A DNA stretch of 28,150 nucleotides from positions 1 through 28,150 of the IMG/VR virus record IMGVR_UViG_3300035698_000926; one strand, written 5' to 3'. Both the position numbers and the translations under genes were made by a program. This document shows, one piece after another, positions 1,196-19,526 of the stretch. The notes under the pieces were generated by a model. The model ran no database searches. It had not been told where the DNA came from and saw only the letters and a program-made list of their open reading frames with translations. The stretch is from a virus. How positions within the stretch are numbered: the stretch's first letter is position 1; each line of letters starts with the position of its first letter.

Positions 1196-1271
1196 TGGTG
1201 GTACCGCGGGGCGTCGATCCCCGGACCTTCCGCTTTTCAGGCGGACGCTCTGCCAACTGAGCTACGGTACC
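1196..1271 (-). tRNA. tRNA-Phe (GAA), CCA encoded
   Basis: Folds as a complete cloverleaf on the minus strand: a perfect 7-bp acceptor (GGTACCG with CGGTACC), D arm GCTC/GAGC, anticodon stem TCCGC/GCGGA with loop CTGAAAA (anticodon GAA), T stem CGGGG/CCCCG with loop ATCGACG. Discriminator A is followed by genomically encoded CCA. It lies between two protein genes in one leftward operon. Confidence 0.93.
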
Positions 1272-1299
1272 TAGTGTGACTTAGTGTAGCACACGATCG

Positions 1300-2079
1300 T
1301 CACCGCATCCAGTAAGGCTTAGGCCCGCCGCTGTAGAGAACACATTCGCGGGCACGCTCAGCAATCTCGTCGTAGCCCTGGATAGCGTTGGTCCAGTATT
1401 CGACTTCACGCTCGTCGTACTTGGCACGGCGAACTCCGTCAACTTCTTCGAATCCGTAGAAGCAGTGTTCGATCTGAATCTTACGGACCCATCCTTCCAC
1501 AGGGCGACGGGAGGACATGCCGGACATTTCGACGTGTACCTGCTTCGCCTGTCCTTTGAGCCAGAGATCCTGCCAGTGGTTGATGAGATCGAAGATTTCG
1601 TCTTCGTCTTTCTCGTTGCGTGCTTTGAGACGCTCAGCGCGACCCTCAACAGTCCACGTGGATCTCCAGTATGGAGGATTGACATCGAACCCTTCCACGT
1701 CCTCAACGTGAGTCATAGCGTGGTCACCCATGTAGCTGTGTCCGACAACTTCACGCGCTTTGGCGTACAGTTCGTCAGGCTCAGCGTTGGGATTGCGCTT
1801 TGCGAGCTTCTCAGCCCATCGCATAATGGGAGCAACCTTATCTGCGTTGCGCCTATCCATCACAACCTCGCGGGTGCGGTGCATGAAGTCAACGTTGGGA
1901 TCTGCGGAGGAGTCATCCCATCCGTGGATCTCGATATCGTGCAGAAGTTCTCGTTCTGCGTTGCGTACGCAGTGGCGTACATTTCGTTTGTCGATCTTTG
2001 CTCCCTTGCGGGCGCTGGACGGTAGTATTCCTCGTCGCAGATCGCGTGCCTTATTCTTCCTCATGGCCAGGCCGTCCAT
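1300..2079 (-). CDS. Unknown protein (259 aa) between two tRNA-Phe genes
   Basis: Leftward gene, charged and largely helical. A basic N-terminus (MRKNKARDLRRG if the second ATG at 2064 is used) is followed by alternating acidic and basic segments and Trp/Tyr-rich stretches near the C-terminus (EYWTNAIQGYDEIAERAREC). No transmembrane segment, signal peptide or known catalytic motif is evident, and I do not recognise the family. It is flanked by tRNA-Phe genes 19 nt upstream and 28 nt downstream, so all are probably processed from one transcript that starts at the 2430-2459 promoter. Neither start has a strong ribosome-binding site. A long opposite-strand frame across it is a codon-bias shadow. 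Confidence 0.75.
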   Translation of the reverse strand: MDGLAMRKNKARDLRRGILPSSARKGAKIDKRNVRHCVRNAERELLHDIEIHGWDDSSADPNVDFMHRTREVVMDRRNADKVAPIMRWAEKLAKRNPNAEPDELYAKAREVVGHSYMGDHAMTHVEDVEGFDVNPPYWRSTWTVEGRAERLKARNEKDEDEIFDLINHWQDLWLKGQAKQVHVEMSGMSSRRPVEGWVRKIQIEHCFYGFEEVDGVRRAKYDEREVEYWTNAIQGYDEIAERARECVLYSGGPKPYWMR

Positions 2080-2098
2080 GCAGTGGTTTCATATGTGT

Positions 2099-2174
2099 TG
2101 GTGGTCAAGGTGGGAGTCGAACCCACTCATCTGGTACTTCACACCAGCGCTAAATCCACATCAGCTACTTAACC
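2099..2174 (-). tRNA. tRNA-Phe (GAA), second copy, CCA encoded
   Basis: Minus-strand cloverleaf: acceptor GGTTAAG/CTTGACC (one G-U), D stem GCT/AGC with a long D loop containing GG, anticodon stem CTGGT/ACCAG with loop GTGAAGT (anticodon GAA), T arm GTGGG-TTCGACT-CCCAC, discriminator A and encoded CCA. Position 37 is G and 38 is T, unlike the usual A-rich 3' side of a tRNA-Phe anticodon loop and unlike the copy at 1196-1271, so the amino acid identity is less certain than the fold. Confidence 0.85.
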
Positions 2175-2327
2175 GCAGTGGCCTTCCCATCCAGGATACA
2201 ATCCCTTAGAGTTCGACCCTGTTTGGTGACTATGCTCGCAGATCTGCAAGCCACCCGAACAAGCTTACCGGCTCATCCACACTACTGCGCTAATGTTCAC
2301 CTTGTCCCCGGTAAGAGCTTCGGTTAG
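2175..2327 (-). other. 153-nt spacer with tRNA-sized structured stretch
   Basis: No gene and no canonical tRNA. On the minus strand, 2301 down to 2225 (77 nt) is bounded by GGTGA/TCACC, contains a D-arm-like segment (TTAGCGCAGT...GAGC), a CCGG/TCGG hairpin and a near-perfect hairpin centred on CAGATCTG in the T-arm position. It lacks the TTCRA T-loop and U33 of a real tRNA. It may be a decayed tRNA or another structured RNA co-transcribed with its neighbours. Confidence 0.3.
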
Positions 2328-2399
2328 TGCATCGTGAGGGATTTGAACCCCCGACTTCAACCGTGTCATGGTTGCACTCTACCCCTGAGTTAACGATGC
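2328..2399 (-). tRNA. tRNA-Val (GAC)
   Basis: Minus-strand cloverleaf with a perfect acceptor GCATCGT/ACGATGC, D arm ACTC/GAGT, anticodon stem CAACC/GGTTG with loop ATGACAC (anticodon GAC), T arm GGGGG-TTCAAAT-CCCTC and discriminator A. CCA is not encoded. It is the first gene after the promoter at 2430-2459. Confidence 0.92.
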
Positions 2400-2429
2400 T
2401 TAGCTGAACGAGTCCAGCTTAGCGATAAT

Positions 2430-2459
2430 AGTGTAACACACATCTTGCGATCGTGTCAA
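2430..2459 (-). promoter_or_regulatory. Promoter of the tRNA-Val/Phe operon
   Basis: Minus-strand TTGACA (2454-2459), 18-bp spacer, TACACT (2430-2435). It sits just downstream of a terminator and 30 nt before tRNA-Val(GAC), as expected for a stable-RNA promoter. Confidence 0.65.
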
Positions 2460-2470
2460 CCTACAATCAC

Positions 2471-2498
2471 AAAAAGACCCCGCACCGTAGTGGGGGCC
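2471..2498 (-). terminator. Rho-independent terminator
   Basis: On the minus strand GGCCCC-CAC, tetraloop TACG, then GTG-C-GGGGTC (about nine GC-rich pairs with one bulged C) followed directly by TTTTT. It lies about 45 nt beyond the stop of the 2543-2914 gene and upstream of the next promoter, so it closes the 3441-2543 transcription unit. Confidence 0.85.
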
Positions 2499-2542
2499 TC
2501 GCTGTGAATCGCGTGTTTAACCTGTGTGCGCTCTAAGCGCTA

Positions 2543-2914
2543 TCAGGCACCCTGTAGCTGGATGGTGACGCTGAGGTCAGAACCAGCGGTACCGGATCCA
2601 ACCTGATCAACGTCGATTTCTAGGACAGAGCCAGCTTCGATGACTGGAAGGTCAGTTGCGCCGAACGTCGTAGCGGTAGCAGTGGTAGCTGCATCCGTGA
2701 TCGTTGGACGGTTGGCCTGCACAGTGTAGATGGTGGTACCATCGTCGTGGATGTCATAAATAAGGTCAGCGCCCGCAGGAGCGGTGCCAACATGAGAGGT
2801 CACACCAATAATGCGTGCACGCTGTGGTAGCACAAACGAAGTCGTGCTACCCGTGGAGATCGCACCGTCGATGGTGAGAACAACTAGTGTGTCGAGAAGT
2901 GTACCGGTAGACAT
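2543..2914 (-). CDS. Beta-rich putative virion or decoration protein (123 aa)
   Basis: Leftward gene rich in Thr, Val, Ile, Gly and Asp with short alternating hydrophobic strands (LLDTLVVLTID, FVLPQRARIIGVT, LIYDIHDDGTTIYTV, VLEIDVDQVGSG, LSVTIQLQGA) and no Cys, Trp or Lys-rich segment. This composition resembles small beta-sandwich phage structural or decoration proteins, but I cannot name a family and the virion role is an inference. Start ATG 2914 has AGGAC about 8 nt upstream. It is co-transcribed behind five tRNAs and ended by a strong terminator, an odd place for a structural gene since the capsid block lies at the other end of the window. Confidence 0.75.
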   Translation of the reverse strand: MSTGTLLDTLVVLTIDGAISTGSTTSFVLPQRARIIGVTSHVGTAPAGADLIYDIHDDGTTIYTVQANRPTITDAATTATATTFGATDLPVIEAGSVLEIDVDQVGSGTAGSDLSVTIQLQGA

Positions 2915-3041
2915 TAAGGGTCCTGCCTTTGTTTCTGCTAGGCCACGCGTATCACAGCCTACGTGTTCAATATAGTAGCTCTAAGTGTGGCACGTTGATC
3001 GAAACAATGCGGCACTTGTGCTTACGGAGAACAAGGATTAG
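2915..3041. other. 127-nt spacer without recognised gene
   Basis: Lies between tRNA-Val(UAC) and the 2914 start. It holds an imperfect inverted repeat (AAGTGTGGCA and TGCGGCACTT, about 15 nt apart) and no convincing promoter. It could be an RNA-processing site or 5' leader structure of the downstream gene. Confidence 0.3.
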
Positions 3042-3113
3042 TGCATCTAGAGAGAATCGAACTCCCGACGAACTGGGTGTAAACCAGCCACTCTACCACT
3101 GAGTTATAGATGC
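3042..3113 (-). tRNA. tRNA-Val (UAC)
   Basis: Minus-strand cloverleaf: acceptor GCATCTA/TAGATGC (perfect), D arm ACTC/GAGT, anticodon stem GCTGG/CCAGT with loop TTTACAC (anticodon TAC), T arm GGGAG-TTCGATT-CTCTC, discriminator A, no CCA encoded. Its acceptor and D arm closely resemble tRNA-Val(GAC) at 2328-2399, suggesting duplication followed by anticodon change. Confidence 0.92.
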
Positions 3114-3131
3114 TTGTGTTGTATATTGTAG

Positions 3132-3204
3132 TCGGCCCCCAGGGAATTGAACCCTGTGTTTCTGAGATATAAGCTCAGCGTCTCAACCAGTTGACTTGAG
3201 GCCA
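3132..3204 (-). tRNA. tRNA-Ile (UAU)
   Basis: Minus-strand cloverleaf: acceptor TGGCCTC/GGGGCCG (with U-G pairs), short D stem GTC/GAC, anticodon stem CTGAG/CTCAG with loop CTTATAT (anticodon TAT, reads AUA), T arm CAGGG-TTCAATT-CCCTG, discriminator A, no CCA. Most bacteria read AUA with a lysidine-modified tRNA-Ile(CAU), so a direct UAU anticodon is unusual. Confidence 0.85.
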
Positions 3205-3210
3205 TTGTAG

Positions 3211-3281
3211 TCACGATAGGTAGAATCGAACTACCGTTCCAACGTTATGAGCGTCGCGTTCTGCCATTAAACTATATCGCG
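3211..3281 (-). tRNA. tRNA-Met (CAU)
   Basis: Minus-strand cloverleaf: acceptor CGCGATA/TATCGTG, D arm around GTTTAATGGCAGAAC, anticodon stem CGACG/CGTTG with loop CTCATAA (anticodon CAT), T arm GGTAG-TTCGATT-CTACC, discriminator A, no CCA. The paired C1-G72 argues against an initiator tRNA. Elongator Met is likely, but lysidine-modified Ile(CAU) cannot be excluded from sequence. Confidence 0.87.
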
Positions 3282-3288
3282 TTATTTG

Positions 3289-3363
3289 TCGATGTTCAGA
3301 GAATCGAACTCTGCTCTTCCTGCGTTATCAGCACAGTCCCAACCACCAGCTAGAGCAACATCG
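3289..3363 (-). tRNA. tRNA-Ile (GAU)
   Basis: Minus-strand cloverleaf: perfect acceptor CGATGTT/AACATCG, enlarged D arm, anticodon stem CTGTG/CGCAG with loop CTGATAA (anticodon GAT), T arm CAGAG-TTCGATT-CTCTG, discriminator A, no CCA encoded. Confidence 0.9.
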
Positions 3364-3371
3364 TGATTTAG

Positions 3372-3441
3372 CAGGGTGACTGGGTATCGAACCCAGCTAG
3401 TCCGGTTTTGGAGACCAGACCCCGCAGCCAGCGGCCACCCT
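3372..3441 (-). tRNA. tRNA-Trp (CCA anticodon)
   Basis: Minus-strand cloverleaf: acceptor AGGGTGG/TCACCCT, anticodon stem CTGGT/ACCGG with loop CTCCAAA (anticodon CCA), T arm CTGGG-TTCGATA-CCCAG, and discriminator G as in bacterial tRNA-Trp. The D-arm region is about 3 nt shorter than standard (CCGC-TGGCT-GCGG hairpin). 3' CCA is not encoded. It is the first tRNA after the 3490-3519 promoter. Confidence 0.87.
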
Positions 3442-4141: not shown

Positions 4142-4678
4142 TCACGAATGGCACCGGGCGGTATCCGTATCAATAGGAATTTGAAACGCTGGACCGGTAA
4201 GAATATCATCGACCGCTATAGCCCAATCCATCTTCTCAGATTCCCAACGCTCACTCATGCGCTTAATGACATCGTACGGAACCTGCTCGGCAGGTGGACG
4301 GCCTACCTGCCGCCTCTGACACTCTCCCACGCTAACGTGGAACTGAACCAAGGAAACGCCGACTTCAAGATCCCAAGCCAATTGCTTCCAAGGATCGAAG
4401 TGACCGTAGTTCAGATTGGTGTCATCGATAATGACAGACATGCCGGTTAGAAGCATACGCTCCACCATGTCACGCTGAATCTCCGTGACAAGCCTCTCCG
4501 TCTTCTTCGAGAATCGGTAACCCATAGGGGAAGAACCGTCTGGGATACACAAACGACGAATGTCGTCACGGTTGGCGCGACCAATAAGACCCGTGGTGCC
4601 AAGCATTTGGTCCTTGGCCCACGTGGTCTTACCGGACCCAGGGAGACCCTGAGTCATGTACAGTCGTTGTTCCATCAT
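4142..4678 (-). CDS. Polynucleotide 5'-kinase (P-loop, kinase domain only)
   Basis: 178-residue P-loop kinase of the T4 Pnk N-terminal family, which transfers ATP gamma-phosphate to 5'-OH RNA or DNA ends. Visible motifs: Walker A GLPGSGKTT (11-19), NRDDIRR (37-42) matching the acceptor-site Asp/Arg of T4 Pnk, DDTNLN (85-90), and an Arg-rich lid QRRQVGRPP (121-129). The C-terminal 3'-phosphatase domain of T4 Pnk (about 300 aa in total) is missing, so ends carrying 2',3'-cyclic phosphate would need another enzyme. Its start overlaps the stop of the RNA ligase gene (GGATGATGG), so kinase and ligase are co-translated and probably act together in RNA or tRNA repair. Confidence 0.87.
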   Translation of the reverse strand: MMEQRLYMTQGLPGSGKTTWAKDQMLGTTGLIGRANRDDIRRLCIPDGSSPMGYRFSKKTERLVTEIQRDMVERMLLTGMSVIIDDTNLNYGHFDPWKQLAWDLEVGVSLVQFHVSVGECQRRQVGRPPAEQVPYDVIKRMSERWESEKMDWAIAVDDILTGPAFQIPIDTDTARCHS

Positions 4679-5814
4679 CCTACTTCTTCCGGATTACCAA
4701 ACGGCACCTCATGTGCCGGGTAAAGTTCCTTCCACACTAGCTCACTGATGTCCTTGTTGTCAAGGAGACGGAAGAAGAAGTTTTTGTCCTTCATCTTGTT
4801 GACGAAGTGCGCAAACTCGCGACGATCAACAGTGCGCCCGTTGTTCTTCATAACCTTAGGGTTCGTGGAATGGCGCTGGAATTCCTTCACGACGCCACGA
4901 ACGCGCTTGGCGTACGATGTCTCAAAGTAGTCTGCCTTTGCACGTACCCACGTGTAGAACTCTTCGGGTACACCGGCAGCCATGATGGCTTCGATGTCTT
5001 CGCCGGTCTTCACAAGTTCCCAGACGCGTCGCGCATTCATGCCCGTAACGAGACGGTGCATGGTCACGTAGTCGGCACGCTTGACCTTGAGGCGATGTGA
5101 CTCGCCACCGGGCGTGTACCAAACCATGACTACGCCTTCGGTGTCATCATGCCCAGCCGAATTGACTGTGTGCGTGATGTCCTGAATGCCCATCTGCGGA
5201 AACTGTTCTGTGATGGAGCCTTCCCACCATTCGACTATTTCGCCGGGGTAAAGGTCGGAACCGTCCTCATGTCGAATTGCTCCGAGCATGATGAGATCCT
5301 CTTGGCCCTTGTAGTCCACAACGATGCGGTTCTCGGGGTAGATGATCTCAACCAGAGGCGTAACGCCTTCTGGCCAGAATCGGCTAAGGGCCGTCAGGAA
5401 CGGAGCAAATTGCTCTTGCAGGTATGTGGTTGCCCACACGGCCTGCTCAGAATCGAACGAGCCTCGCGTGGCTACGCCAACGTGGCCTTCGTACTCGTAC
5501 AAGATGCCCAACGAGCCGTCAAGCTTATCGAAGATCTGTGCCGGGTAGTCAGACACAACGATCTGTGGCTGCGCGTGATCGCCCAGGTTGAAGAACTTCT
5601 TGAACGGACGAGCAACGATGTTGTAGTCCGCGTCAAGGATGAGTCCACGACAAGCACGTGTCGCAGAGTTCCACAGGTCGGCGTGAATGACTTCCTGCGT
5701 GTAGTTGTAGATCGTCAAAGGCAGAGTTGGATGAGTCTGGGTTCGAATGAACCCTTCCTCAATCATACGCTCAAGCAAATCGATCTTGAAGATGGCACTT
5801 ACGTGTGTAGACAT
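4675..5814 (-). CDS. T4 Rnl1-family RNA ligase
   Basis: 379-residue ATP-dependent RNA ligase resembling T4 RNA ligase 1, which joins 3'-OH and 5'-phosphate RNA ends such as cleaved anticodon loops. Motif I is KLDG with lysine 97 as the AMP-accepting residue. Upstream is the family-typical CRGLILDADYNIVARPFKKF (55-74). Also present are RGSF (117-120, motif Ia), the VEIIYPENRIV strand (155-165, motif IV) and EGVVMVW...KVKR (226-246, motif V). Length is close to T4 Rnl1 (374 aa). ATG 5814 lies 7 nt from the -10 box of promoter 5822-5850, so the mRNA is probably leaderless. It heads an operon with the kinase at 4142-4678. Confidence 0.9.
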   Translation of the reverse strand: MSTHVSAIFKIDLLERMIEEGFIRTQTHPTLPLTIYNYTQEVIHADLWNSATRACRGLILDADYNIVARPFKKFFNLGDHAQPQIVVSDYPAQIFDKLDGSLGILYEYEGHVGVATRGSFDSEQAVWATTYLQEQFAPFLTALSRFWPEGVTPLVEIIYPENRIVVDYKGQEDLIMLGAIRHEDGSDLYPGEIVEWWEGSITEQFPQMGIQDITHTVNSAGHDDTEGVVMVWYTPGGESHRLKVKRADYVTMHRLVTGMNARRVWELVKTGEDIEAIMAAGVPEEFYTWVRAKADYFETSYAKRVRGVVKEFQRHSTNPKVMKNNGRTVDRREFAHFVNKMKDKNFFFRLLDNKDISELVWKELYPAHEVPFGNPEEVG

Positions 5815-11799: not shown

Positions 11800-12254
11800 A
11801 CGAGTACATGGATGCTGCGGCTGCGCAGGTATTAGGAGAGGCTAATTTGGTGCAGATTCAGTTGCTGCACGATTATCCTCTTCAGTGGCAGGCCGCTTTG
11901 GAGATTCTGATTGATGAACTTCGTGGAGCTATAGTTGGGTACGATGCTAAGCTTGCTGGTATTCCGGAGACGGCTACCATTGAAGAGCTGCGCAACGTTC
12001 CCGCTGATCGCCATCGTAGAGAAGCGAACAACCGATTGTGGTTGGCTGAGAAGGATTTGGCTGTCGTTAATAGGCTTGTTGAAATTGAGGGAGGCCGTGC
12101 CGATAGTAGGGTGTACACTTTGCTGTTGAACGCTATTAAGCGTCACCAGTCTTTGGTAGATGCTCCATCGACGGCGGACCTGGCGCTGTACGAATCTCTA
12201 AATGGGCGTTGGGGCTTCGAAGGCATTCTAGAGGAACTAGGGGAGACGTTATGA
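11796..12254 (+). CDS. Unknown helical protein (152 aa)
   Basis: Starts MNEYMDAAAAQVLGEANLVQ and is almost wholly helical with charged heptad-like segments (RREANNRLWLAEKDLAVVNRLVEIE), no Cys. ATG 11796 overlaps the exonuclease stop (ATGA), and its own stop overlaps the next start, so it is tightly coupled on both sides. No recognised family; coiled-coil adaptor or replication accessory roles are possible. Confidence 0.7.
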   Translation: MNEYMDAAAAQVLGEANLVQIQLLHDYPLQWQAALEILIDELRGAIVGYDAKLAGIPETATIEELRNVPADRHRREANNRLWLAEKDLAVVNRLVEIEGGRADSRVYTLLLNAIKRHQSLVDAPSTADLALYESLNGRWGFEGILEELGETL

Positions 12255-13360
12255 AGGTAGGGTTCGCAACCGTAGACTGGTCACGCACCATGCAGGACGC
12301 TAACGGTGTCCCTGTAATGGGAGGCTCTGGACACATCCGCATCGGTCAGTACCTTCCTCATTTAACGATGGATCATGTGGTTGGTGCTCCAGCGTTCGAT
12401 TGGGACAAGGGGGTGTTTGGTGTTCACTTGTTAACGAACACTGAACAGTTCACCGACCCGAGCGATCTGCTTGTCACTGATACGACTGATGACGACTTCG
12501 TGTGGGACTGCGACATCATTTACCTTCAGCGCAACATGCATATCAGCATGCCTGACGCTATCATTGAGGCGCGCAGTAACGGCCAGATCGTCGTCAACGA
12601 CGTGGACGACTGGTACTGGGGCTTACACAAAGACAACCAGGCGTACTGGACTACAGATCCTGAACTGAACTGGGAGTACAATCGAGCACATTACAAGAAG
12701 GCACTTGAGGTTTCCAGCGCTGTGGTCGTGTCTACCCCGTTTTTGAGGGACCGGATCTCACAATGGAATCCCCGCACGTATACGCTAGAAAACCATATTG
12801 ACATTGAGAAGTTTAACGGTCAGCGCAGATTTACCGATGGCTCTACTGAGGAATTCGGCCGGGTAGGGTGGACTGGTTCTACTGCTCATCGTTCCGGCGA
12901 CCTTCGGGTGCTGCGGCCGTTCGCCCGACAGTTCGAATGGACTCACTTAGGACACCACGAAGATCATCCTTTCTTCACAGGAGTAGTAGGCATAGAGGAA
13001 GCGCATACGTTAGGTATGGCTGAGTACTCCGAGTATGCTAAGCGATTTGAGTTCGATATCGGGGTTGTGCCGTTGTCTAAGAACCCGTTCAATGATGCTA
13101 AGTCTGCTATCAAGGGCATGGAGTACGCTGCGGCCGGGGTGCCGTTTGTGGCTTCTGAAACCGATCAGTACAACCGTCTGAGAGATTTCTACCGTGTCGG
13201 CCTTACGGCACGCGGTACGCCTGATTGGATTCGCCGTTTGAAGCGATTGTCTGCGTCTCCATATTTGAGGGCTGAAGTGGCTGAAGAGAATTGGCACAAC
13301 TTGCAGCGACTAGACGTGTCCATTGGCGCTATCAAACTTAAGGATCTTCTGACTCCATGA
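12251..13360 (+). CDS. Glycosyltransferase, GT4/GT-B-like
   Basis: 369-residue protein starting MKVGFATVDWSRTMQDANG, with the GT-B arrangement: an N-terminal domain with a Gly-rich turn (GGSGHIRIGQYLP), VVSTPFLRDRISQW in the middle, RVGWTGSTAHRSGDL opening the second Rossmann domain, and KSAIKGMEYAAAGVPFVASET, the donor-binding C-terminal signature of GT4-type enzymes. It would transfer an activated sugar. Target unknown: modified phage DNA, virion protein or host surface. GGGAG lies 6 nt upstream of ATG 12251; a 14-codon longer start lacks support. ATGA overlaps at both ends place it inside the recombination operon. Confidence 0.78.
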   Translation: MKVGFATVDWSRTMQDANGVPVMGGSGHIRIGQYLPHLTMDHVVGAPAFDWDKGVFGVHLLTNTEQFTDPSDLLVTDTTDDDFVWDCDIIYLQRNMHISMPDAIIEARSNGQIVVNDVDDWYWGLHKDNQAYWTTDPELNWEYNRAHYKKALEVSSAVVVSTPFLRDRISQWNPRTYTLENHIDIEKFNGQRRFTDGSTEEFGRVGWTGSTAHRSGDLRVLRPFARQFEWTHLGHHEDHPFFTGVVGIEEAHTLGMAEYSEYAKRFEFDIGVVPLSKNPFNDAKSAIKGMEYAAAGVPFVASETDQYNRLRDFYRVGLTARGTPDWIRRLKRLSASPYLRAEVAEENWHNLQRLDVSIGAIKLKDLLTP

Positions 13361-16048: not shown

Positions 16049-17146
16049 ATGAGAGCACTTGTTTCTGTCCGTACTGTAGATTCTGTCCATCCCATTGAGG
16101 GGGCCGACGCTATTGAGCGCGCCCGTGTGGGCGGCTGGGACGTGGTGGTTAAGAAGGAAGAGAATTACAAGCCCGGCGATTTGACTATCTTCTTCGAAAT
16201 CGATGCTGCCCTTCCGTTGGATGGGTTCTTCGGGTTCTTGGCTAACCGGTCTCCGAAGCGTAACGTGAATGACAAGACTTGCCATGTGGTTCGTACTGCG
16301 AAGCTGCGGGGGGTTGTGTCGCAGGGTCTCATGGTGCTGCCCAAGGATCTGTTCCCGTACCGCCTTGAAACCGACGACGATGAACCTTGGCTTGTAGAGG
16401 GCAAGGATCTCACAGCGCTGATGTTTGAGCAGTACGGCGTCACCAAGTACGAGGCTCCCCTTCCTGGGCAAGCTGGCGGCACCACGCCTAAGGGTAACTT
16501 CCCGAATGAGCTTGTTCGTAAGACTGACTCCGAGCGAGTTCAGAATCTCGGCAACCCTTGGGGTAAGGTTCCTTCCCACGAGGTTAAGGAAGGGGACAGA
16601 GAACGGGTCCGAGAAATGTATAGTGTGTGGGACGAAATACAGAAGCACAAATGGATTGCTTCCGAGAAGATTGACGGAACGTCCGTTACGTTCATTAACA
16701 CCATCGACGGGCTGATTGTTTGCTCGCGCAACTGGATGCTTAACGACGGCGAAAATCTGTACTGGAACATGGCTCGCGAGCACGAGCTAGCGGACTTTAT
16801 GCCCATCGACACGTACGTGCAGGGTGAGATCTATGGCGAGGGAATCCAGAAGAACCGCCTGGGAGTCAAGGGTGTCCATCTGGGCGTCTTTGCCAGCGGC
16901 TTCGTGCACGGTAAGGACGGCGATTGGGTCGATCTAACTTTGCCGTGGGTTCCTGCCTATGACCTAGTTCTTCCTGCCACGATTGATGAGGCAGTGGAGC
17001 AGGCTAACGGTATCAAGTCCAAGATTTCTAAGGACCGTCTCGCTGAGGGCATTGTGTGGTGGACTACTTCTCCTATCATTGGTCTTGGGGATCGTCCGAA
17101 CTTTAAGGCTATTAGCAACAAGTATCTGTTGAAGGAGAAGGATTGA
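16049..17146 (+). CDS. DraRnl/Rnl5-type RNA ligase
   Basis: 365-residue ATP-dependent RNA ligase of the Deinococcus DraRnl (Rnl5) type. It carries an N-terminal OB-like module (1-130; GGWDVVVKKEENYKPGDL) ahead of the nucleotidyltransferase domain, as in DraRnl. Motif I is SEKIDGTS with Lys 207 as adenylated residue. SRNW (226-229), VQGEIYGEGI (257-266), EGIVWW and FKAISNKYLLK supply motifs III, IV and V. DraRnl seals 3'-OH/5'-phosphate RNA nicks in duplexes. This is a second RNA ligase of a different family from the Rnl1-like enzyme at 4675-5814, under its own leaderless promoter and away from the kinase. Confidence 0.87.
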   Translation: MRALVSVRTVDSVHPIEGADAIERARVGGWDVVVKKEENYKPGDLTIFFEIDAALPLDGFFGFLANRSPKRNVNDKTCHVVRTAKLRGVVSQGLMVLPKDLFPYRLETDDDEPWLVEGKDLTALMFEQYGVTKYEAPLPGQAGGTTPKGNFPNELVRKTDSERVQNLGNPWGKVPSHEVKEGDRERVREMYSVWDEIQKHKWIASEKIDGTSVTFINTIDGLIVCSRNWMLNDGENLYWNMAREHELADFMPIDTYVQGEIYGEGIQKNRLGVKGVHLGVFASGFVHGKDGDWVDLTLPWVPAYDLVLPATIDEAVEQANGIKSKISKDRLAEGIVWWTTSPIIGLGDRPNFKAISNKYLLKEKD

Positions 17147-17856: not shown

Positions 17857-18996
17857 ATGTTCCTTGACATTGATGTCGTGGAAGCCGCTCGTCAACGAAT
17901 CCGCCACGTGTACGACACGTTCGATACTGTGTGTGTTCAGTTCTCTGGCGGTAAAGACTCAACAGCGTGCCTGTATCTCGCTAAAGAGGTACACGAGGAG
18001 CGCGGGCTTGGGCCTGTCAAAGTCATCTTCCGAGACGAAGAGATGCTGTCCCCATCCGTGCTTGAGTACGTCACCGAGGTTTCCAATTACGATTGGGTAG
18101 ACATGGAATGGTACTGTCTTCCTCAAGGACAAGAGATTTGGGTTCTGGGCCGTCGCGAGTACACGATGCTGTGGTCTAAGCAACGCGAATCCGAGGGCCG
18201 GTTGTTCCGCCCCATTCCCGAAGGCGCTATCACGGCCGAATCGTTCGGCATTGATCCCACGAAGCCTATCCCACAGCCCATCGACTACTACACAATGCAA
18301 GGCAAGGAAGGCATGACGGCGTTCATTACGGGCGTGCGTGCAGCCGAATCTATGATCCGTCATCGCACTGTGGTGCAGAAGTTGTCTGAGAATTACATAA
18401 ACCGACCGTATCGTCTTTCTAAGAAGATCCCGATGCGGTTTGCGAAGATCATCTACGATTGGAACGTGAACGATGTCTACAAATTCATTTCGGAAGAGCA
18501 TGGCGCTTCTTACTGTGCATTCTATGACTATGCTGCGATGGGTGGAGCTAATCAGCGCGTCGGCATCCCGCTTCATTCAGTTGCATCTAGGCGAATTGGC
18601 GATGTGGTTCGTACAGAGCCTGAATTCTACGATCGTCTAGTTGAGTGCTTCCCTCAGATTGAGGCGCAGCGTCGTTTGTGGCCCGAGTTTGATATTGAGG
18701 CTCTGATTCAGTCGTATGCAGCGGACGGCTGGGATGGAGTCCGTGATTGTGTTGATGACAACATGTTGACGGATGGGATCCACCGCGAGGCGATGGCGTT
18801 CGTTGATAAGTGGCGTAAGAAGTATGTGCTTGATAAGCACAGTTACCCCATTGACAACTTGATCCGAACATTGATTCTAAATGAGTTCCATCACACAGCA
18901 CCTACCCCTGTTGGTGGTAAGACCAGAGCACACACTGTTCGCATGCAGGCTCTTGCCGATGCTGACAGCCTAGACATACAGGATGACACCAGATGA
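17857..18996 (+). CDS. PAPS reductase-like PP-loop protein (IbrA-like)
   Basis: 379-residue protein of the adenine-nucleotide alpha-hydrolase fold. The PP-loop SGGKDST (30-36) binds ATP or PAPS pyrophosphate. The next strand gives VKVIFRDEEMLSP. Further on are FITGVRAAESMIRHR, matching the G-x-R-x-x-E-S segment of PAPS reductase relatives, then IIYDWNVNDVYKFI. It is longer than classical CysH and lacks the C-terminal ECG(L)H Cys. Length and pairing with a ParB-fold gene resemble IbrA, and DndC belongs to the same superfamily. The chemistry in phages is unknown; sulfur or nucleotide transfer and DNA modification are possibilities. ATGA overlap with the next gene. Confidence 0.82.
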   Translation: MFLDIDVVEAARQRIRHVYDTFDTVCVQFSGGKDSTACLYLAKEVHEERGLGPVKVIFRDEEMLSPSVLEYVTEVSNYDWVDMEWYCLPQGQEIWVLGRREYTMLWSKQRESEGRLFRPIPEGAITAESFGIDPTKPIPQPIDYYTMQGKEGMTAFITGVRAAESMIRHRTVVQKLSENYINRPYRLSKKIPMRFAKIIYDWNVNDVYKFISEEHGASYCAFYDYAAMGGANQRVGIPLHSVASRRIGDVVRTEPEFYDRLVECFPQIEAQRRLWPEFDIEALIQSYAADGWDGVRDCVDDNMLTDGIHREAMAFVDKWRKKYVLDKHSYPIDNLIRTLILNEFHHTAPTPVGGKTRAHTVRMQALADADSLDIQDDTR

Positions 18997-19526
18997 CAAG
19001 ATCCACGTACGAAGCAGTAATAGCGACTATTGTTCCATCACCGTGGAGCAGCACGTACACCCTCAAGCCTGACATTCGTCAGATTGAGGCGTCGATTAAG
19101 CAACATGGTGTGATGGCTCCTGTCGTTCTCCGTGGTGACGATCTTACTATCATTGATGGGCATACTCGTGTCAACATTGCGCACAAGTTGGGGTGGGATA
19201 CGATCTGGGCTGTGCACGCTGACGTGGACGAGATTGATGCCATGATCCTTCATCTTAGAATGAACCGTAACCGCGGCGATGCCGTGGCGCGCCGCGTGTC
19301 AGTGATTCTGCGTCGTATTTTGGCAGCTAACCGTTTCGATCCTAACGAGTTACGTTTGTCTCTTGGCATGACTAAGGACGAGTTCGATGTGCTGGCGGAT
19401 GGCACGATTTTGAAGCACCGCAAGATTGCTACCGCTGAGTATTCGGCGGCGTGGGTGCCTTTCGAAACGGATACGGGCGAGGATATTCGTATCGAGCGAC
19501 CCACGGGCAAGAAGGAACAAGTCTAA
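18993..19526 (+). CDS. ParB-like domain protein (IbrB-like)
   Basis: 177-residue ParB/Srx-fold protein: KPDIRQIEASIKQHGVMAPV, then TIIDGHTRVNIAHKLGWDTI, where DGHTR (55-59) is the conserved nucleotide-binding signature also related to the DGQHR motif of DndB-like proteins. The C-terminal half is basic and helical (RRVSVILRRILAANRFDPNELR). It directly follows the PP-loop gene with an ATGA overlap, the same order as IbrA-IbrB. A functional pair is therefore inferred. What the pair does is not established; in E. coli IbrA/IbrB are reported as regulators of eib immunoglobulin-binding genes. Confidence 0.78.
   Translation: MTRSTYEAVIATIVPSPWSSTYTLKPDIRQIEASIKQHGVMAPVVLRGDDLTIIDGHTRVNIAHKLGWDTIWAVHADVDEIDAMILHLRMNRNRGDAVARRVSVILRRILAANRFDPNELRLSLGMTKDEFDVLADGTILKHRKIATAEYSAAWVPFETDTGEDIRIERPTGKKEQV

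Follow-up and report, generated by a model that had tools for sequence, protein, structure and literature searches.

A PP-loop/ParB gene pair related to IbrA-IbrB: candidate core of a phage DNA-modification module

What is the role of two overlapping phage genes, one coding for a PP-loop protein of the PAPS-reductase fold and the other for a ParB-fold protein? The PHROG and GenBank names annotate the pair as sulfate-assimilation 'cysH' or as 'partition protein', labels that the sequence evidence described below contradicts; the literature we searched assigned no function to the phage pair. We analyzed one such pair, coding for proteins P0001 (PP-loop) and P0002 (ParB-B), in an entire IMG/VR virus record of 28,150 bases (the window). 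We argue that the pair probably forms the central part of a module that modifies phage DNA by adding a chemical mark, a module usually used together with a second ParB-fold protein, ParB-A.

The gene pair in the window

The window codes for a terminase, a portal protein, a Mu-F-like protein, a prohead protease and a WhiB regulator, as well as for RecA (read from the sequence); this gene content suggests a tailed phage with an actinobacterium as putative host. A reading made from the sequence alone (the sequence-only reading) had reported the two ORFs (Table 1), their 4-base ATGA overlap (...CCAGATGACAAG...) and the SGGKDST and DGHTR motifs; translation, together with Pfam and PHROG matches far beyond chance, confirmed all of these. 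In the window ParB-A lies upstream of the pair and is separated from it by an RNA ligase gene and by two small ORFs; the terminase is situated 2.7 kb from the pair on the opposite strand. With an RNA ligase inside it and a distant terminase on the other strand, the locus is looser than those of the cluster B3 mycobacteriophages described below, which counts against a DNA-modification module; so does the failure to recognize a base-modifying oxygenase, a methylase or a base-exchange enzyme beside the pair in the window.

A nearby glycosyltransferase had been raised as a possible part of a modification pathway. The gene is real, but relatives found in 44 related loci occupy varying positions with no systematic tie to the ParB/PP-loop unit, and this part of the proposal is not supported.

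The minus strand at 1196-3441 carries eight tRNA genes, two each for Phe, Val and Ile and one each for Met and Trp; the two tRNA-Phe(GAA) genes are ~800 bases apart. At 4142-5814, also on the minus strand, a polynucleotide kinase gene adjoins that of a T4 Rnl1-like RNA ligase; the second RNA ligase, of PHA02142 type, is the one listed in Table 1. The kinase and the two ligases form an RNA/tRNA repair set that possibly acts against anticodon nucleases.

Table 1. Features of the window discussed in the text
Feature	Coordinates	Strand	Remarks
Glycosyltransferase	12209-13360	+	PHROG 7162, E 5.4e-33
ParB-A, second ParB-fold protein, 269 aa	15207..16016	+	PHROG 723, E 1.6e-25
RNA ligase (PHA02142 / RNA_ligase), between ParB-A and PP-loop gene	16049..17146	+	Outside conserved unit
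PP-loop ATP-pyrophosphatase / PAPS-reductase-fold protein (P0001; PHROG 2302; IbrA/YbdN-like without DUF3440)	17857..18996	+	379 aa, ATG start
SGGKDST PP-loop motif, residues 30-36 of P0001	17944..17964	+	From translation; SGGKDS invariant in alignment
GVRAAESMIR, residues 159-168 of P0001	18331..18360	+	G159, R161, E164, R168 invariant; S165 nearly so
IYDW motif, residues 199-202 of P0001	18451..18462	+	Common to FAD synthase (LLDW) and CysD
ParB-B (P0002; IbrB/YbdM-like): ParB N-terminal fold, one HTH-like segment, conserved C-terminal tail	18993..19526	+	177 aa, ATG start
DGHTR, residues 55-59 of ParB-B, at position of ParB GExR nucleotide-binding box	19155..19169	+	D55, G56, R59 invariant (alignment A3)
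YSAAWVP tail motif, residues 150-156 of ParB-B	19440..19460	+	Y, S, A, W and P each 93-99% conserved

A three-gene unit and the genes that share its location

By tblastn, PP-loop relatives were present in 123 records of cultivated phages at E 1e-5 and in 215 at 1e-3, the best relatives being those of cluster B3 mycobacteriophages (38% identity) and Arthrobacter Laroyevirus (42%). A scan of IMG/VR with one query found at least 599 relatives, of which 80 loci, 66-74% identical, were kept; further scans added 31 viral loci and five phage-like contigs in MAGs. The viral-contig search seeded with Bac022 gave no relatives, and the one seeded with YbdN gave one. All loci were gathered by PP-loop similarity only, and gene calls in the IMG/VR loci were mechanical ORFs.

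In 121 of 130 loci ParB-B was directly downstream of the PP-loop gene. The nine others included two ORF-start artefacts with ParB-B present, two loci with ParB-B upstream of the PP-loop gene (Flavobacterium FCV-1 and Microcystis Mwe-JY13), four cut by sequence ends and one without ParB-B; the two genes were thus adjacent in 125 of 126 assessable loci. Of ten other gene families of these phages, none adjoined ParB-B. The Spearman mirror-tree correlation between PP-loop and ParB-B distances was 0.75, no better than that of unrelated phage genes (0.57-0.86); it is thus uninformative and lends the module no support.

In 94 of 130 loci a ParB-A gene with the same orientation preceded the pair by no more than 4 kb and was usually directly adjacent; as some loci are near duplicates, we also give the dereplicated count, 37 of 46 loci with enough sequence. 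The real unit is therefore often ParB-A / PP-loop / ParB-B, and the 'other ParB-like gene' that the sequence-only reading had seen nearby turned out to be a recurrent third partner. This triad was present in phages of Mycobacterium, Arthrobacter, Bacillus, Rhizobium and Faecalibacterium; in most loci ParB-A and the PP-loop gene had no RNA ligase between them. An IbrA/IbrB-like pair with no ParB-A is present in E. coli and in Streptococcus, Flavobacterium and Nebkiss phages, which again speaks against the module.

A PHROG 11826 methyltransferase was encoded within the unit or next to it in Arthrobacter, Bacillus and Mycobacterium phages: Salgado gp8 (L005:5536-6114), Bacillus 022DV001 gp80 (L088:5070-5621) and prophi79-1 gp98 (L003:7971-8576); it is a possible fourth component. 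A GNAT protein followed ParB-B in Kovu and in locus L107. Both observations are what one would predict if accessory enzymes varied.

In Microbacterium phage Leaf (gp154-159, locus L089), a PP-loop homologue of 471 aa is the last gene of a cluster whose other products include two glycosyltransferases together with an acetyltransferase and a methyltransferase; we consider this cluster a candidate hypermodification cluster without a recognized ParB.

What occupies the place between ParB-A and the terminase in Bclasvirinae mycobacteriophages and their relatives when the pair is absent? We compared a modest, hand-picked set of ParB-A matches from one large actinophage group; ten ParB-A proteins of other phages matched the ParB-A HMM at about E 1e-38 to 1e-67. 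LizLemon, which belongs to the species Rosebushvirus rosebush, and CRB2 had the order ParB-A, DpdA, QueC, QueD, QueE, FolE, terminase, and in Typha it was ParB-A, DpdA, QueD, QueE, FolE, terminase. LizLemon served here as a same-species stand-in for Rosebush, a B2 type phage with dPreQ0 at ~28% of G in its virion DNA (PMC6884629); the same DpdA-Que genes of CRB2 were described earlier (PMC6392294). In JAMaL, LittleMunchkin and Tonitrus, ParB-A was followed by genes for an oxygenase of TET/JBP-like type and for an amino-acid:DNA transferase (ADDT), and two of these phages had a nucleotide kinase too; Baee had ParB-A, a TET/JBP-like oxygenase, a TAGT glycosyltransferase and a deacetylase, all four TET/JBP scores being under Pfam's cut-off. 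In Shambre1 and prophiT48-1, ParB-A was fused to an N6/N4 DNA methylase and the terminase followed. GNAT-containing and formyltransferase-like proteins with no assigned role came after ParB-A in Mariokart and NHagos.

The gp2 proteins of the Mycobacterium phages JAMaL (L135:785-1759) and Baee (L136:819-1697) are annotated as 'queuine tRNA-ribosyltransferase' (PHROG 6059). With a weak Tet_JBP match, no match to CRB2 DpdA, and an adjacent ADDT or TAGT gene, they look like TET/JBP oxygenases, and the label is probably wrong.

The pair itself, with ParB-A, occupied the pre-terminase slot in Phlyer, Kovu, Salgado, prophi79-1 and Taranis, and only loosely so in the window; in Phlyer the order was ParB-A, two small ORFs, PP-loop, ParB-B, TerL, RuvC, portal. 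None of the 20 PP-loop carriers searched had ADDT, and four of the carriers (Phlyer, prophi79-1, Kovu and Salgado) had no DpdA; conversely, all 10 phages in which the slot was filled otherwise were without the PP-loop gene. Given this exchange and mutual exclusion, the simplest reading is that the PP-loop and ParB-B genes make up a further DNA-modification module that can be exchanged for the others. Since the slot in related phages holds DNA-modification enzymes, the pair is almost certainly neither a sulfur-metabolism enzyme nor a partition-like protein. An independent example of ParB beside adenylation-based DNA hypermodification is provided by phage CmoX cytosine carboxymethyltransferases, which ParB-domain genes accompany along with AMP-forming ligases (PMC12783734).

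Predicted folds and alternative readings

P0001 matched PF01507 (E 8.8e-11) and PHROG 2302 (E 3.4e-71). Residues R14, SGGKDS, D60, E62, W106, R118, G159, R161, E164, R168, I199, D201, W202, D206, Y223, R234 and P255 were invariant in an alignment of 45 sequences (A2), and the PP-loop site of the family is intact. The GVRAAESMIR region with its basic residues we take to be the equivalent of the CysH oxyanion/phosphate-binding site. A PDB search with the single P0001 sequence gave no significant match; the family profile did better, matching FAD synthase (E 1.9e-5) and CysD (E 1.2e-3), both ahead of CysH. Foldseek with the AlphaFold2 model (pLDDT 87.4, with a low-pLDDT loop from residue 165) placed FAD synthase and CysH on top. 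In the reactions of FAD synthase and CysD, both adenylyltransferases, the acceptor of AMP is a phosphate or sulfate.

In loci L124, L125 and L126 the PP-loop gene carries an in-frame intein of ~310 residues with a LAGLIDADG domain, inserted after WY(86), at C87, in an ORF of 700 aa (L124:3759-5861); the Pfam matches were Intein_splicing at 1.1e-6 (below cut-off) and LAGLIDADG_3 at 3.2e-8. Inteins are usually inserted in important nucleic-acid enzymes.

ParB-B matched PF02195 (E 2.3e-6), PHROG 2159 (E 3.4e-17) and several other ParB PHROGs, and its profile matched ParB structures at E 1e-10. In Foldseek its AlphaFold2 model (pLDDT 84) corresponded to the N-domain plus HTH of the ParB/Noc/KorB clamps (E 1.7e-8), a DNA-binding architecture; the C-terminal dimerisation domain of these proteins is absent, and the HTH is followed by a 40-residue low-confidence tail. 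Box residues G56, R59, N91 and R92 were invariant among ParB-B proteins. The YSxAWxP tail, present in E. coli YbdM too, was 93-99% conserved yet predicted to be disordered in isolation, which suggests a candidate docking motif, perhaps for the PP-loop protein.

The DGHTR motif also raised the idea of a SerK/sulfiredoxin-like kinase; in the fold search ParB/Noc/KorB ranked well above SerK and Srx, and we do not favor this candidate.

Could the pair act as a gene-expression switch, with ParB-B as a ParB/VirB-like nucleotide-gated DNA clamp, able to activate phage late genes or relieve their silencing, and the PP-loop protein making or sensing the nucleotide signal? The fold of ParB-B, with its match to ParB/Noc/KorB, is suited to such a role, as is homology to YbdN/YbdM and IbrAB: IbrAB are on record for activating the eib genes of prophages (Sandt 2002, as cited in PMC7649339), and VirB is a ParB-type anti-silencer (PMC10770331). 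We still regard a switch as unlikely; it would leave unexplained both the slot shared with DNA-modification enzymes and why the ATP-pyrophosphatase site is so strictly conserved. In addition, the dimerisation domain is missing from ParB-B, and eib activation could itself follow from DNA modification.

Modification or repair of RNA, tied to the phage tRNAs, RNA ligases and polynucleotide kinase, is appreciably less probable than a switch. Many PP-loop enzymes act on tRNA, and the window has the tRNA genes, ligases and kinase listed above. On the other hand, 22 of the 28 carrier records scanned had no tRNA gene, and the ParB-B fold and genome slot point to DNA; RNA_lig_T4_1 matched none of the 28 carriers, in a search that ran without a positive control and so carries no weight. 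The sequence-only reading had left DNA and RNA modification side by side: nucleic-acid modification is now the best-supported role, through slot-exchange evidence that such a reading could not have had, and a tRNA target is not supported by the carrier genomes.

We give even less weight to insertion of sulfur into DNA, phosphorothioate-type or other, in the manner of DndC/SspD, at which the sequence-only reading had hinted. The PP-loop superfamily is common to both, P0001 has a weak DndC profile match (PADLOC E 2.5e-6) and DndB has a ParB fold. No cysteine, however, is conserved across the whole P0001 family (C220 occurs only in the PHROG-2302 clade, C87 mostly among the nearest relatives), the CysH ECG(L)H catalytic motif or CxxC occurred in none of 130 members, and the Fe-S triad was not found in the family. 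An aminotransferase-V (PF00266) desulfurase was found in none of 28 carriers, with 14 of 14 controls positive; a host desulfurase could substitute. With these absences, DndC-type insertion and sulfate reduction are both unlikely chemistries for the pair. Assimilatory sulfate reduction by a cysH auxiliary metabolic gene, as the PHROG and GenBank names imply and as virome papers count such genes, is scarcely credible with all 130 members lacking the catalytic Cys motif (as the sequence-only reading had rightly seen for the window), a near-obligatory ParB partner and a locus between ParB-A and terminase.

From the fold kinship with FAD synthase and CysD and the lack of conserved cysteines, we infer that the phage PP-loop enzyme probably adenylylates an oxyanion-bearing acceptor.

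Proposed role and closest known systems

Under the DNA-modification reading, ParB-B (and ParB-A) would bind DNA under the control of a nucleotide and, as subunits, recruit the enzyme to DNA or choose the site, possibly in a complex of ParB-B with the PP-loop protein. The latter would bind ATP, free pyrophosphate and transfer or use AMP, which would activate an oxyanion-bearing acceptor: a base substituent, a phosphate or a small donor. The modification would be put on, or completed on, phage DNA before packaging and, most plausibly, would block host nucleases. We consider this reading the probable one on the gene context of a modest number of annotated genomes. One could speculate further, at less than even odds, that the unit may represent a previously unrecognized and widespread class of DNA modification, with an adenylyl-transferring PP-loop enzyme working without sulfur, to which many viral 'cysH/PAPS reductase' AMGs would belong.

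The pair is abundant (>590 IMG/VR matches to one query), with isolates infecting Mycobacterium, Arthrobacter, Bacillus, Rhizobium and Faecalibacterium. If it modifies DNA, new chemistry would be added to the phage counter-restriction repertoire, and IbrAB/YbdNM, unexplained since 2002, would gain a biochemical role open to testing. Environmental surveys may then have to revise some of their counts of viral cysH. Cultivated mycobacteriophages allow a direct test beside their relative Rosebush, whose modification is already known.

Several known systems can be set beside the pair. DndBCDE and SspABCD, treated with related systems in PMC10853773 and PMC12839542 (DndB/DndC), also have a PP-loop enzyme and, in Dnd, a ParB-superfamily protein; unlike them, the phage pair showed no conserved Cys/Fe-S, desulfurase, DndD/DndE or SspC partner. 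A 2025 survey of ParB-fold proteins, including phage ones, shows binding of CTP, ATP or GTP (PMC12704722); neither PAPS nor Ibr turned up in text searches of it.

By profile, the closest solved relatives of P0001 are FAD synthase (FMN adenylyltransferase) and CysD, which have in common with it the GGKDxTxLxxL and DWxxxDxxxFL...YCxxYD motifs and use no catalytic Cys in this role; they are metabolic enzymes without ParB partners, and overall identity is about 15%. The DpdA/QueCDE 7-deazaguanine system of Rosebush type occupies the same ParB-A-to-terminase slot and has its own PP-loop enzyme, QueC, of a family different from P0001; no DpdA homologue was seen in the carriers searched. The same triad is found in Phlyer (Pipefishvirus, cluster B3) as gp1-gp4-gp5, annotated as ParB, PAPS reductase-like and 'IBrB, ParB-like nuclease', and its PP-loop and ParB-B proteins are 38% and 31% identical to those of the window; the Phlyer unit, unlike that of the window, is directly upstream of the terminase with no RNA ligase inside.

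The resemblance to IbrA-IbrB proposed in the sequence-only reading proved to be true homology (P0001 versus YbdN, E 3e-13; P0002 versus YbdM, E 2e-7). YbdN/YbdM, which in E. coli K-12 correspond to IbrA/IbrB of the ECOR-9 genetic island, have the same two folds, gene order and gene overlap as the phage pair, along with the invariant PP-loop residues and the YSxAW tail (YbdM tail aligned). ParB-B shows the features of the IbrB/YbdM family: ParB fold, DGxxR, HTH-like segment, YSxAW tail and an IbrA-like neighbor. P0001 has PF01507 and the homology expected of the IbrA/YbdN family but lacks, at E 0.1, the C-terminal DUF3440 of YbdN (PF11922, E 2.6e-32); its clade has YCxxYD in place of the YbdN CNPLYN, and ParB-A is usually upstream in the phage version. 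Being homologous to YbdN/YbdM but without DUF3440, the window pair belongs to a phage clade sister to IbrA/IbrB, and P0001 is not a strict member of the IbrA/YbdN family.
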